Part shown: one piece after another, positions 70 through 54,885 of the stretch
Layout: every line of letters begins with the position of its first letter
How positions within the stretch are numbered: the stretch's first letter is position 1
Assembly: GCA_951828515.1 (NCBI GenBank)
Contig: OX639992.1
Span: 4,380,217 to 4,444,216, forward strand
DNA length: 64,000 nt
Source of the DNA: an uncultured Poribacteria bacterium
GTDB lineage: Bacteria > Poribacteria > WGA-4E > WGA-3G
Reading direction: 5' to 3'
Position numbers and translations under genes: made by a program
The notes under the pieces: model-generated
Seen by the model: the letters and a program-made list of their open reading frames with translations, nothing else
What the model was told of the DNA's origin: nothing
The model's database searches: none

Positions 70-123
70 GGCAGACATAATGAGCGTTACCGCTTGGTAA
101 CGTGTCTGCCTACCCACTCATTA
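70..123 (+). promoter_or_regulatory. Structured tnpB leader (stem-loop plus long-range pairing)
   Basis: An outer 8-bp stem (70-77 with 103-110) encloses a 7-bp hairpin (85-91 with 96-102, loop GCTT). The 7 nt between outer and inner stems, TAATGAG (78-84), are an exact reverse complement of CTCATTA at 117-123, giving a pseudoknot or an alternative fold. In copy 2 the outer stem is the same, the inner stem has a compensatory change, and the 7-mers differ at four positions yet remain fully complementary. At the DNA level it could equally be the hairpin-bearing left end that TnpA recognises. The structure is seen in the sequence; its role is inferred. Confidence 0.75.
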
Positions 124-32715: not shown

Positions 32716-32735
32716 CCCCATGCTTTAGCTTGGGG
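32716..32735 (+). repeat. IS605-type right-end hairpin remnant
   Basis: CCCCA and TGGGG arms enclose GC-TTTA-GC, the hairpin style that ends IS605/IS1341 elements. It lies 55 bp left of tnpB copy 2, and no second transposase is attached, so it may be what is left of another element. Confidence 0.45.
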
Positions 32736-32772: not shown

Positions 32773-32801
32773 TTGACATTGACCTAAAATTGTGGTATAA
32801 T
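32773..32801 (+). promoter_or_regulatory. Consensus sigma-70 promoter of tnpB copy 2
   Basis: TTGACA (32773-32778) and TATAAT (32796-32801) with a 17-bp spacer, as in copy 1. Confidence 0.85.
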
Positions 32802-32815
32802 TAAAGTATCAAGTT

Positions 32816-32869
32816 GGCAGACATGTATAGCGCTACCGCTTGGTAGCGTGTCTGCCTACCCACTATACA
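32816..32869 (+). promoter_or_regulatory. Structured tnpB leader, copy 2
   Basis: Outer stem 32816-32823 with 32849-32856 is identical to copy 1. The inner stem CGCTACC/GGTAGCG differs from copy 1 by a paired T-A to C-G change. TGTATAG (32824-32830) is the exact reverse complement of CTATACA (32863-32869), matching the position but not the sequence of the copy 1 pairing. Confidence 0.75.
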
Positions 32870-32898
32870 GGGGTTAAAGACTTGAGACTTGATAGACC

Positions 32899-34014
32899 AT
32901 GAAAACCTATAACTACCCGCTTGGGAAACAATCGAATACGATCCGCATTGGCAACTTGCTTGACGATATGTGGCAAGTGCATGATTACTTCCATAGGTGG
33001 CAAGACCAAAGATACAAAGACGGGTTGCCCTATGCGAACTATCATGCTATGTCCGCACACGTCAAAGAACTCAAGAAAACGACACACCCGCATTGGAATG
33101 CGTTGCCGAGCCAAGCGATCCAACAAGAGTTGAAACGTATTGATGAAGCCTACGTCCGCTTTTTCAAGAAGTTAGGCGGTAAACCGAGACGTAAGCCGAG
33201 ACATAAGTTCAAGTCTATTACCTTTACACAAGCGGGTTATGCGTTAGAAGATAATCGTATTACGATAACCTTTCGTGAGTGGAATGCCAGAAAACAGATT
33301 TGGTCTTTTAGGCGTATTCCGTTCACATTTCATAAACACCGTGAGTTCCACGGAACTATCGCACGTATCACCCTCAAACGTGATAATTGCGGTGGCTATT
33401 GGATTTGTATAGTGACAGATCATGCAGATACCAAAGAACTGTCAGCAACAGGTCAGAGAGTTGGGGCAGACTTCGGCATGAAAGACGCATACTTGACGCT
33501 GAGCACGAGTGAGAAAATACAACACCCACAACCTTTGAAACACTCCTTGAAGAAACTTCGGTCTCTCAACAAAGCACTTTCTCGTAAAGTTAAAGGTTCT
33601 AACGGCTGGTGGCGGTGTGTAAGAACAATCGCGCGTCTGTATCGGAAAATCAGCAACCAACGTAAAGACTTTCACTGGCAACTCGCAAGTAAACTCTGTA
33701 AACGCTTTGATACGATAGTCCTTGAAACGTTGAACCTTGACGGTATGAAACGCTTGTGGGGACGCAAAGTCTCTGACCTTGCGTTTTACCAGTTTGTTGA
33801 GATATTGAAGTATAAGTGTCAAAAACATAAGCGTCAGTTCCTTCAAGTTGGTCAGTGGACTGCGACGACAAAACCGTGTAGTGAGTGTGGTTTTCACAAC
33901 GAAACCCTTACGCTCTCTGATAGGCAGTGGACATGTCCGGCATGTGGTTCACACCACAACAGGGACATCAACGCTGCCATAAACATTTTGCGGGCAGGGA
34001 TAGCCACTCTGTAA
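32899..34014 (+). CDS. tnpB: TnpB, RNA-guided endonuclease of IS605-type element (copy 2)
   Basis: A 371-residue protein, the same length as copy 1. RuvC motifs are intact: GADFGMKDAYL, IVLETLNLDGM and HHNRDINAAIN; the zinc finger is CSEC with CPAC. Differences from copy 1 cluster in the region of residues 45-60 and 105-185 (for example RRKPRHKFKS against KIKKRHKFKS and a different substrate-facing loop), so the two may differ in recognition. As with copy 1 no clear Shine-Dalgarno precedes the ATG. Both copies look functional, which suggests continuing selection rather than recent copying. Confidence 0.95.
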   Translation: MKTYNYPLGKQSNTIRIGNLLDDMWQVHDYFHRWQDQRYKDGLPYANYHAMSAHVKELKKTTHPHWNALPSQAIQQELKRIDEAYVRFFKKLGGKPRRKPRHKFKSITFTQAGYALEDNRITITFREWNARKQIWSFRRIPFTFHKHREFHGTIARITLKRDNCGGYWICIVTDHADTKELSATGQRVGADFGMKDAYLTLSTSEKIQHPQPLKHSLKKLRSLNKALSRKVKGSNGWWRCVRTIARLYRKISNQRKDFHWQLASKLCKRFDTIVLETLNLDGMKRLWGRKVSDLAFYQFVEILKYKCQKHKRQFLQVGQWTATTKPCSECGFHNETLTLSDRQWTCPACGSHHNRDINAAINILRAGIATL

Positions 34015-43821: not shown

Positions 43822-44862
43822 TTATAGAACCTCTTTGAGAAACTCAAACGCGCCAACGCCGTGGAAACTATGCCCCGCCTCGAATACCTCAAGATCTATT
43901 TTGTCTTCGGCATCGAAGCATTTGTAAATTGATTTTGCTTCGTTAACCGCAAAACGGGTGGCTTCAATTGGGAAAATCGTGTCTTCCGTTCCAGATTCAA
44001 CAAACAGAGCACGCGGCGCGATTAACCCCGCGATGTCGTACATCTCAGCATATTGTAGCACATTCGGTATGTAGTTGTCTATACAATGGCTGAGACTCAA
44101 AATACTGTCCCGAAACGTGTTGAAATAACCGCTCACAACCGCCGCCTTGACCCGTTCATCAATTGCGGCAGTGAAGAAGGTGGTCGTGCCACCGCCAGAA
44201 ATTCCCATCACACCCAGACGGTTCATATCGACCTCCGGACGCGTTGCCAGATAGTCAAAGGCGCGCATAGCATCATAGACCCGCCACCCGACCATCGTAT
44301 AACCTAAGAGTAGAGCGGCACCCGCACTCGGTTGGCACGAGGAATTCCCGCCACCCTTCTGATGAGCGATAGGGTCTCGTCGGTGTCCAAACCCGAATTG
44401 TTCAATGGCGAGCACGGTGTAACCGTTTGCCACACATTGGAGGGCGAAATCGTTCTGATAGCCGCCATATTCTGATCGCATGGTGCCGTCTTCCTCAATT
44501 CCGACAATGTCATCTACACCGCGCCCGTGTCCCGCTAAACAGAGAATCGTAGGCTTCGGAGTTGAATTATTGAGAGGCTTCGGAGAAAGGAAGTACCCGA
44601 AAATATTGGCGTGTGGACGACTCTGAAACTGCACCGTCTCGCGGAAATAGGTGGGAAATTCGCAAGCGTCCAGTACTTGTGGTTGTAGGTCGCAGGATTC
44701 CTGCGGAAAACCGCCAACTAATTCGGTAAGTTTTGCACGCAGTTCGCCTTGCCAAACTTCTGCTTCTGCAATACTCGTCGCCTGAAATGCGAGTTGACGA
44801 GGGGTCTCCGCATATAATTGATGCGAAAATGCTAATGTATCTCGTTCCTGTTCGTGGTACAT
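43822..44862 (-). CDS. Alpha/beta hydrolase, acetyl xylan esterase/dienelactone hydrolase-like
   Basis: A 346-residue secreted-type or cytosolic alpha/beta hydrolase. The nucleophile elbow is VMGISGGGTTTFF (Ser), the acid is in VESGTEDTIFPIE and the base in FEAGHSFHGVG. The oxyanion-region block LCLAGHGRGVDDIVG is typical of PF12715-like carbohydrate esterases. No signal peptide is seen. The start is the ATG at 44862 (MYHEQERDTL): the repeat at 44863-44960 ends exactly one base before it and provides CAAGG plus an A-rich spacer. An in-frame ATG at 44922 would translate the repeat. Confidence 0.8.
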   Translation of the reverse strand: MYHEQERDTLAFSHQLYAETPRQLAFQATSIAEAEVWQGELRAKLTELVGGFPQESCDLQPQVLDACEFPTYFRETVQFQSRPHANIFGYFLSPKPLNNSTPKPTILCLAGHGRGVDDIVGIEEDGTMRSEYGGYQNDFALQCVANGYTVLAIEQFGFGHRRDPIAHQKGGGNSSCQPSAGAALLLGYTMVGWRVYDAMRAFDYLATRPEVDMNRLGVMGISGGGTTTFFTAAIDERVKAAVVSGYFNTFRDSILSLSHCIDNYIPNVLQYAEMYDIAGLIAPRALFVESGTEDTIFPIEATRFAVNEAKSIYKCFDAEDKIDLEVFEAGHSFHGVGAFEFLKEVL

Positions 44863-44960
44863 TTTTTTAATTTTCCTTGCGGGTGAACATCGGACGTTTG
44901 ATCTTTGACGTGGGTTCCTCAAATTCGCCTGCGCCGTTGTTGCAGGCTACGTTTTTTCAT
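44863..44960 (-). repeat. Dispersed repeat ending at a start codon
   Basis: On the minus strand it has a GCCTGC...GCAGGC hairpin near its start and CCGCAAGGAAAATTAAAAAA at the end, directly before ATG 44862. Same family as 46323-46440. Confidence 0.75.
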
Positions 44961-44978
44961 GATACCTTGAGGGAGCCT

Positions 44979-46322
44979 TTATGAGGCGCAATCCTCTTCA
45001 CCGACTGCTGATTGCGACGCAAGCCGCGTGTCGGAAACCTGCGGGACAATGCTGACTGCTGACACATTCAACAGATTTAAAACGAACCCGGTTGCCATCT
45101 TCGGATAGAAGTAGGTGGATTTCTGTGGCATTGTCTGACCCGCCATAGCCACATCTAAGACCTGTTCAACAGGAGTCGGGTTCATCAAGAGTGCAACACG
45201 GTTCGTCCCTTCTTTTACGTGTGAGACAGCATCATCTGTGTATGCAGTATAACTGATGTGTTCCGCCAGTGTTTCAATCTGGAATAGATTTTTGATGAGG
45301 GTTTCTTGAACAAGCGTTACATCCAATTGTTTCGGTGTAGTCGAATGCGGAATCAACAGACGGTAGGTATCGTTTGCTGTGTACATGCCGACTGCAGGGG
45401 ATTTCCCTTTCATCGTATCCAATTTTGCCGTAAGGTTCGCCTGTGTGTCAATTTCGTGCACCTCAAACGTCTCTGGCAGTTTAGCGATAGCGTGCGAGAT
45501 CCTATCTGCGCTGAGGTTAGACAAGAGTCGATGAATCGCTAAGACCGCCAAGCCCGGCGATTCCATCCTGACGAGGTTCACCATCATGTAATCATAACCG
45601 CTGGATGCGCCATCTGATCCTGTCTGAACCATTTCGTCTCGGAAGGCGAGTGCCGTTTCATAGCGATGATGTCCATCGGCGATCAGGAGCGGTTTCGTTG
45701 AAAAGAGGGCTTGGATCTCACGGTTACGCGCTGTGTCGTCTAAGCACCAGAGTTGGTGTGTGCTTCCAAAGGTTTCAGGACAATCAATCTGAGGTTGATT
45801 TTTATCGGTGAAACTATCCATTATCCCTTCGATATCCCCAGCCGGATCGGCATAGAGAAGAAAGATCGGACTGAGATTGGCGTGACATTCCCGCATGAGG
45901 TTGAGTCGATCCGCTTTCGGTCCTGCATGTGTTTTTTCGTGCGGTAGGATCACCCGATTTTCAAAGGGTTCGAGTTTCACGAGTGCTATTAAGGCGCGGC
46001 GCGTATAATTTTTCCCGTCAGGAGCATTAAAGGATTGGTCATAAATGTAATAACGGGGGGTCGCGTCCCGGACGAGAGTGCCCTCTGAAGTCCACTGATC
46101 CATACGCGCCGCGGCGCGTGTGTACTGATTTTCGTCGTCGGTGTCGTTAGCGTGTGGTTGACTTAAAATTAAGCGGATAGTATTGGCGGGATGGCGTGCC
46201 TCCAAAGCGACCTGTTCGTCCGGTTTGATGACATCGTAAGGGGGTGCTATGACGTTCTCGATTCCTTTCACCTTGGTCGCGTTGTAGCGTAAGCCTCGAA
46301 ATGGAATAACGGTTGTTTCCAT
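44979..46322 (-). CDS. DUF1015 family protein
   Basis: About 447 residues, the usual length of DUF1015 (a conserved family of unknown biochemical role, probably cytosolic). Typical blocks are VIPFRGLRYNATKVKGIENVI at the start, ARHPANTIRLILSQ, LLIADGHHRYETALAFR and the C-terminal TYFYPKMATGFVLN. The start is the ATG at 46322 (METTVIPFRG), directly after a copy of the CCGCAAGG repeat; a further in-frame ATG at 46358 would translate the repeat. The last 25 residues (from SAVSIVPQVSD) are encoded by a heptamer-type repeat at about 44995-45065, so the C-terminus has been extended by repeat sequence. Confidence 0.85.
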   Translation of the reverse strand: METTVIPFRGLRYNATKVKGIENVIAPPYDVIKPDEQVALEARHPANTIRLILSQPHANDTDDENQYTRAAARMDQWTSEGTLVRDATPRYYIYDQSFNAPDGKNYTRRALIALVKLEPFENRVILPHEKTHAGPKADRLNLMRECHANLSPIFLLYADPAGDIEGIMDSFTDKNQPQIDCPETFGSTHQLWCLDDTARNREIQALFSTKPLLIADGHHRYETALAFRDEMVQTGSDGASSGYDYMMVNLVRMESPGLAVLAIHRLLSNLSADRISHAIAKLPETFEVHEIDTQANLTAKLDTMKGKSPAVGMYTANDTYRLLIPHSTTPKQLDVTLVQETLIKNLFQIETLAEHISYTAYTDDAVSHVKEGTNRVALLMNPTPVEQVLDVAMAGQTMPQKSTYFYPKMATGFVLNLLNVSAVSIVPQVSDTRLASQSAVGEEDCAS

Positions 46323-46500
46323 ATTTTTAATTATACCTTGCGGAGGCACATCGGACATTTGAACTTTGACGTGCGTCCCTCATATCCGCCTGCGTCGTTG
46401 TTGCAGGCTACGTTTTTTGATGATACCTTGAGAAAACCTTATTTTCAATTATACCTTGCGGAGGCACATCGGACATTTGAACTTTGACGTGCGTCCCTTA
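46323..46500 (-). repeat. Two tandem copies of start-codon repeat
   Basis: 46323-46440 is a full copy ending at ATG 46322; 46443-46500 is a partial copy of the same sequence 117 bp further on. The shared block is about 50 bp, nearly identical (TTGCGGAGGCACATCGGAC on the plus strand). Only the first copy abuts a gene start. Confidence 0.8.
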
Positions 46501-54313: not shown

Positions 54314-54885
54314 TTATAGGTTCGTCCCAAACCCAGTAGGTGCGGTTTCTAACCAGGGTTCCCGCCCATTACTGGGAAGGGACACCAGATTGTCCTTACC
54401 TCATTTCCTATTTACAATTCGCTCTCCTCCCCGCTGGCGAGGTTTCTAACCTCGCCATTCACGTAATGTTTCCAACCAAATTGGCTTCAACCTAAACTCG
54501 GTAGGTGCGGTTTCTAACCAGGGTTCCCGCCCGTTACTGGGAAGGGACGCCGGATTGCCCTAACCTTATTTCCTGCTTACAATTCGCTCTTCTCCCCTCA
54601 ATTCGCTCTCCTCCCCGCTGGCGAGGTTTCCTAACCTCGCCTTGTCTTTACTTTTCGTACTTGATCCTTACGATGCCAATCAGAAATATGTTCCTTCCCC
54701 TCTTCAGCCCCAGCGGGGCGACATGTCTGTAGAAAAACGTTATCCCTCTCTCCAAAGCCCCAGCGGGGCGACATGTCTGTATATTCCACCGATTCAATTG
54801 GCATCTGTTTCCCAAATATGCTATAGTAATGTTAAGCAAAATTTATATCATAACCGAATTCATTGATTTATAAAAGGGACTATAT
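54314..54885. repeat. Repeat-packed boundary of the defence-like island
   Basis: A unit of about 110-130 bp starting with GGTGCGGTTTCTAACCAGGG occurs twice (from 54338 and from 54502, offset about 165 bp), each followed by a CCGCTGGCGAGG palindrome (54437, 54617). Then two copies of a CCCCAGCGGGGCGACATG repeat lie 52 bp apart (54708-54735 and 54760-54785). No gene is seen. Repeat density is the highest in the window and marks the left edge of the island. Confidence 0.75.

Follow-up and report, generated by a model that had tools for sequence, protein, structure and literature searches.

A pseudoknotted five-helix RNA leader before tnpB and restriction-modification genes of Poribacteria: a candidate RNA class with a possible gating function

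Introduction

The control of TnpB expression is poorly understood, and the locus described here raises the question of what a short, self-complementary segment lying just before tnpB is, and what it does there. In the window (the whole stretch of 64,000 nucleotides that was analysed), two tnpB genes, both encoding proteins of 371 aa, each stand behind one copy of this leader. An earlier note on this DNA had seen in both copies an outer stem, an inner hairpin and a pair of distant complementary 7-mers, and had considered either a pseudoknot or switch acting on translation, or a single-stranded left end read by TnpA. Leaders of insertion sequence (IS) mRNAs that bury the start region are already known, as are stabilising stem-loops in 5′ UTRs; the fold described below, the behaviour of its P2 helix and its sharing with restriction-modification genes appear to be new. 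No paper on this leader was found in a literature search that included few subscription journals.

Results

The leader is a five-helix RNA beginning at a predicted transcription start

The leader is an RNA of roughly 90 letters with five helices, in which P0 (TATCAnG/CnTGATA) surrounds P1 (GGCAGACA/TGTCTGCC), the P3 hairpin and the P4 hairpin, and P2 links the bulge between P1 and P3 to the 9-nt loop of P4 in a kissing interaction. The features of the two window copies are the following.

27–55, +, promoter of copy 1, sigma70-type, read from sequence: TTGACA 27–32, 17-nt spacer, TATAAT 50–55
61–152, +, leader copy 1, read from sequence
61–67, +, P0 5′ strand TATCAAG, at the predicted transcription start, pairing with R1 or R2
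70–77, +, P1 5′ strand GGCAGACA of copy 1, partner of 103–110
78–84, +, P2 5′ strand TAATGAG, hypervariable 7-mer in the bulge of the P1/P3 arm (from covariation)
85–102, +, P3 hairpin CGTTACC-GCTT-GGTAACG, strands 85–91 and 96–102 (from covariation)
103–110, +, P1 3′ strand TGTCTGCC of copy 1, partner of 70–77
112–128, +, P4 hairpin ACCC (112–115)/GGGT (125–128), with the P2 3′ strand in its loop (from variants)
117–123, +, P2 3′ strand CTCATTA, pseudoknot partner of TAATGAG (from covariation)
135–141, +, R1 CTTGAGA, first partner of the P0 5′ strand (from covariation)
142–148, +, R2 CTTGACA, second partner of the P0 5′ strand, exactly 7 nt past R1 and 11 nt before the ATG
153–1268, +, tnpB copy 1, 371 aa, OrfB_IS605 and Cas12f1-like_TNB (Pfam)
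1290–1394, +, putative omega-RNA region and right end of copy 1, hairpin CCCAACCCTTTAGGTTTGGG at 1366–1385, resembling copy 2
32716–32735, +, left-end hairpin CCCCATGCTTTAGCTTGGGG of copy 2, near the left boundary of the element, upstream of the leader
32773–32801, +, promoter of copy 2: TTGACA 32773–32778, TATAAT 32796–32801
32807–32898, +, leader copy 2: P0 32807–32813, R1 32881–32887, R2 32888–32894
32816–32823 with 32849–32856, +, P1 of copy 2, GGCAGACA with TGTCTGCC
32824–32830 with 32863–32869, +, P2 of copy 2, TGTATAG with CTATACA
32831–32848, +, P3 hairpin of copy 2, CGCTACC/GGTAGCG
32858–32861/32871–32874, +, P4 of copy 2
32899–34014, +, tnpB copy 2, 371 aa, OrfB_IS605 and Cas12f1-like_TNB

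What the earlier note had seen directly is borne out by these coordinates: its 8-bp outer stem is P1, identical in both copies, its inner hairpin is P3, in which a U-A pair (CGTTACC/GGTAACG, copy 1) becomes C-G (CGCTACC/GGTAGCG, copy 2), and its complementary 7-mers are P2, with four of the seven pairs differing on both sides. The ATG indeed has no Shine-Dalgarno motif directly upstream. What it had overlooked is the enclosing P0, the P4 hairpin, the tandem strands R1 and R2 and, immediately upstream of P0, the sigma70-type promoter. The nested, pseudoknot-free folds of the two window leaders have z-scores of -4.0 and -5.0.

P0 begins at the predicted transcription start, promoter and start both being predicted from consensus, and the distance from the TATAAT (-10) box to P0 is 5–6 nt in 100 of 140 leaders. 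P4 takes the form A/U CCC..GGG U/A, with A-U to U-A changes among variants (TACCC..GGGGTT, TCCC..GGGGAT). In P3, 103 cells are G-U and none is A-C; because P3 tolerates the former and never the latter, it is the top strand that functions, most simply as RNA. Few unpaired nucleotides are conserved, the most invariant being the A that opens the P4 loop and the UAAA after P4. As expected of a cis-regulatory leader, the structure is conserved by covariation within a predicted transcribed 5′ UTR. The RNA is real, and its function would be that of a translation gate or of a 5′ stabiliser. In some leaders (L069:1440-1555 on the minus strand, L105, L106 and L253) the P3 loop is enlarged by a nested, GC-rich insert of about 26 nt (CCCCCTTCCCAGTAACGGGTGGGG type).

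P2 is free in sequence and nearly strict in complementarity

Among the 29 copies of the source genome (alignment A3), 96.9% of P2 cells are paired, with no one-sided change at the four variable central pairs. Across 146 distinct leaders, which hold 53 different P2 5′ 7-mers, complementarity is perfect in 129, against a mean of 4.3 and a maximum of 12 after shuffling, so the earlier claim that this base pairing is kept by selection is strongly supported. In another alignment (A6), which has 81 distinct rows, P2 is paired in 98.4% of cells; its covariation score is 0.722, compared with 0.136 for shuffled rows and never above 0.12 when the register is slid. A6 was collected with a pattern that fixes CT....A of the P2 3′ side; since the four variable bases and the whole 5′ side are left free, complementarity is not built into it. 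G-U pairs make up 1.1% of P2 cells versus 10% of P3 cells. P2 is thus sequence-free but nearly strictly Watson-Crick. Since most copies share descent or have recombined, leader counts overstate the number of independent events; the slid-register controls and the fully divergent relatives described below escape this weakness.

Further copies with unmatched 7-mers, which the earlier note had named as the observation that would speak against pairing, are rare: P2 is badly broken in only about 5 of 149 leaders. Some leaders with a broken P2 are visible recombinants of two leaders, for instance L015, in which P1 is chimeric too, and L070. Dead tnpB genes go with a broken P2 at a suggestive level only (Fisher p about 0.09), and L023, among the five leaders that were counted, still has a P2 in a shorter register. 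Recombinant or mismatched leaders (L015, L055, L070 and L106:2436-2551) constitute a set of natural mutants.

Two explanations for the variability of P2 were considered and rejected. P2 shows no sign of diversifying selection: where the leader flanks are unrecombined, its divergence is close to the synonymous rate at 4-fold sites of tnpB, not faster. Nor is P2 private to each genome, as orthogonality would require, sharing being higher, not lower, within genomes than between them. Over the 146 leaders, C is absent from position 2 of the P2 5′ strand, and G is nearly absent from its position 3.

The P0 5′ strand has two tandem partners

The 3′ strand of P0 occurs twice downstream of P4, 7 nt apart, as R1 and R2. 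As these two strands abut or overlap, the test of R2 was anchored at a fixed 7-nt offset from R1. The base of R1 is complementary to the variable 5′ base in 152 of 165 leaders and that of R2 in 151 of 165 (shuffled 58, maximum 82). In A6, 92.0% of the cells between the 5′ strand and R1 are paired, as are 94.5% of those between the 5′ strand and R2; both covariation scores lie beyond all 500 shuffles. The median duplex energies are similar (-7.6 kcal/mol for the R1 helix, -6.1 kcal/mol for the R2 helix). In 65 of the 84 leaders with long tnpB ORFs, across several TnpB types, R2 begins 11 nt upstream of the start codon, and SD-like motifs between R2 and the start occur in 7 of 206 leaders versus 13 of 26 window ORFs.

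The same 5′ strand covaries with both R1 and R2, which would allow an alternative pairing of the kind found in riboswitches. This anatomy corresponds to two competing helices near the start codon, which may act as a gate. The pseudoknot just before tnpB, proposed in the earlier note, is strongly supported; its switch is plausible, but the signature of switching lies in the P0 5′ strand and its choice of R1 or R2, not in P2.

The leader lies inside tnpB elements, in ORF-less derivatives and before restriction-modification genes

The host element fits an IS200/IS605-type tnpB element, with OrfB_IS605 and Cas12f1-like_TNB domains, end hairpins and no tnpA; five Y1 transposase matches above cut-off were found in the genome. 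In near-identical copies, the left boundary has its own hairpin (CCCCATGCTTTAGCTTGGGG type) 95–123 nt upstream of the leader, a matching right end follows the putative omega-RNA, and right ends of the CCCAACCCTTTAGGTTTGGG-hairpin form mark the element boundary. As the left-end hairpin sits further upstream, the leader is not the terminal hairpin. It is not the omega-RNA either, since it lies 5′ of tnpB and a separate omega-RNA-like sequence lies at the right end. The TnpBs behind the leader are diverse, with a median pairwise identity of 35% and six clusters at 50%.

Homologous 500-bp elements devoid of an ORF also keep the leader (L238 and L301 in genome G082, L260 in G047; 72% identical over 528 nt). 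Their P2 is wholly changed and still complementary (ATACTGA/TCAGTAT versus ATGCAC/GTGCAT), which argues that a role in translation is not the whole story. These elements (L238:1306-1392 on the minus strand, L301 and L260), present in two genera, are non-autonomous IS made of a promoter, a leader and an omega-RNA-like right end.

A second subfamily (class 2, L303–L332; 44 hits in 25 genomes) has GGGTGGCA/TGCCACCC as P1, and most of its leaders retain a P2 of at least 7 bp. Class 2 leaders precede type II DNA methyltransferases (L303, L304, L320 and L325, and L321 by sequence resemblance), type II restriction enzymes (L305 and, weakly, L310, DpnII) and small proteins with a signal peptide, a coiled coil and a transmembrane segment. 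No IS end hairpin was found upstream of 30 class 2 leaders in a quick, insensitive scan that was positive for only 38 of 140 tnpB leaders.

The leader is widespread in Poribacteria and has divergent relatives

About 40 leader copies were found in the source genome (5.85 Mb, one contig), and a covariance model built from the nested helices only, P2 being left out, detected the leader in 50 of 85 Poribacteria genomes. In GTDB contigs, a scan with one sequence pattern, on which the view of the range outside this phylum is based, gave 82 stretches, every one of them titled Poribacteria. Weak model hits, and a second model built from them, revealed divergent relatives in which the sequences of P0 to P4 are all changed and the plan is the same. 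Their P2 helices are of 6–8 bp: CTTTTCAC/GTGAAAAG (L288), ATTGTAG/CTACAAT (L258), AATAGCA/TGCTATT (L259) and ATGCGA/TCGCAT (L268). The weakest hits, such as L291, L293 and L299, have no P2 and may be relics or chance matches. A tnpB-less element (L250, G000:C1:236278-236323) has the same promoter followed by a leader of unrelated sequence and of the same plan, with P1 GGATTAGGA/TCCTAATCC and P2 CTTCCAC/GTGGAAG.

No Rfam 15 family reaches its gathering cut-off over the leader. Downstream of ORF-less leaders of genome G029, weak RAGATH-18-like matches (L294:1099-1153 and L295:1083-1137, both on the minus strand) score 27.8 bits, E 0.12, below the cut-off.

Discussion

We propose that the tnpB(-omegaRNA) transcript opens, at its very 5′ end, with a structured cis-acting RNA, the leader, that would act as a two-register gate, a reading whose chances we judge to be about even. 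The compact pseudoknot would set the register used by the P0 5′ strand. With this strand on R1, the fold would be closed and the stretch from R2 to the start codon left open; with the strand on R2, the helix would lie about 4 nt from the start codon and would hide this codon from ribosomes. Such a gate would keep a nuclease that may do harm at a low level or make its expression conditional, and the leader would additionally hold the transcript's 5′ end in a helix. The case for the R1/R2 switch comes from covariation and spacing, and the fixed distance between R2 and the ATG could be co-inherited with the leader as a single module. The methyltransferase and type II restriction genes behind the relatives count for the gate, being genes for which tight control makes sense. 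Given the ORF-less elements, the leader may also, or instead, have a role in RNA stability. More tentatively, and with somewhat less than an even chance in our judgement, the leader would represent a Poribacteria-wide, undescribed RNA class common to TnpB transposons, their ORF-less derivatives and restriction-modification genes, in which the toggling of the 5′ strand between R1 and R2 gates expression and the copy-specific kissing pair acts as a lock.

The leader could instead serve as a 5′-end stabiliser, P0 burying the 5′ end and shielding mRNA and omega-RNA transcripts from 5′-end-dependent decay, with R1 and R2 as two ways of doing so. This would account for its presence in ORF-less elements and before unrelated genes, and is consistent with the start of P0 5–6 nt past the -10 box in most leaders and with the established stabilisation of mRNA by 5′ UTR stem-loops (PMC7509114). 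Taken alone, however, it leaves unexplained the equal conservation of R2, its 11-nt spacing to the start codon and the elaborate kissing pseudoknot, and we regard it as rather unlikely. That the pseudoknot is a riboswitch, binding a small molecule or a protein (possibly TnpB itself) that sets R1 versus R2, seems improbable to us: a compact pseudoknot, a platform for alternative pairing near the start codon and the invariant unpaired A and UAAA would suit it, but conserved unpaired residues are very few and no Rfam riboswitch matches. A TnpB-specific site is moreover unlikely, as the TnpBs are diverse and other genes share the leader.

Two further readings have very little probability in our view. 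The single-stranded DNA left end for a Y1 transposase, put forward in the earlier note, would make the 7-mers similar to a guide/cleavage-site pairing, and the elements are IS200/IS605-like with end hairpins, the genome has its five Y1 matches and the ORF-less copies keep the leader. It is disfavoured by the position of the leader, about 100 nt inside the element with the terminal hairpin upstream and the promoter in between, by the G-U pairs of P3 without A-C, which point to a top-strand RNA, and by relatives sitting before genes whose upstream sequence showed no IS end hairpin in the quick, insensitive scan. It is similarly hard to believe that a self-cleaving ribozyme processes the 5′ end of the transcript. 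HDV-like and pistol ribozymes do occur in a transposon context, and the leader is a small pseudoknotted RNA inside a transposon; yet it has no conserved catalytic core and no Rfam ribozyme match. An HDV-like ribozyme, which would be a nested double pseudoknot with P1.1 and with the P2 3′ strand after P4, was rejected, since here this strand lies inside the P4 loop and an enclosing P0 precedes P1, as was pistol, of which the topology of the leader is only a circular permutation.

Structures in the 5′ UTR that bury the start region are described for the tnp mRNA of ISPpu9 (PMC8450116) and for the tnpA mRNA of IS200 (Ellis et al. 2015, as cited in PMC8450116). The Poribacteria leader resembles them as a structure before an IS gene that probably limits translation. 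Those leaders, however, are described as stem structures with antisense or small RNAs, whereas the one found here is a kissing pseudoknot of five helices, contains a hypervariable pair and two partner strands in tandem, and also precedes non-IS genes. With riboswitch-type leaders it shares a compact pseudoknot and, close to the start codon, a strand for which two partners compete; it differs from them by its little conserved unpaired sequence, the lack of an Rfam match and a kissing pair that is free in sequence. Like the omega-RNA of TnpB (reRNA, including RAGATH-18), it is a structured RNA on the tnpB transcript, but the omega-RNA forms the 3′ end, at the right end of the element, and the leader lies at the 5′ end and has no match to it.

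Loop-loop kissing RNAs control plasmid copy number in ColE1 (RNAI/II) and in the IncB/IncI leaders. The 7-bp kissing pair that varies between copies recalls these systems; unlike in them, a single RNA contains both halves, no antisense RNA was found and there is no excess of distinctness within genomes. Stem-loops of the ompA kind in 5′ UTRs are stabilising, and the leader likewise sequesters the 5′ end in a helix from the transcription start; in contrast to them, it is pseudoknotted and its partner strand is duplicated.

Altogether, hundreds of natural TnpB transcripts, whose start is predicted, begin with one RNA fold, and the same fold before methyltransferase and restriction genes links selfish nucleases through a single RNA control module. 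The free yet strictly complementary P2 and the duplicated partner strand provide exact predictions that are easily tested with compensatory mutants, and the leader module could serve as an insulated RNA part.

Elsewhere in the window, direct repeats of 62–117 nt lie about 1.4 kb apart at 44858–46498, and a 112-nt repeat pair with 165-nt spacing is found at 54321–54597.
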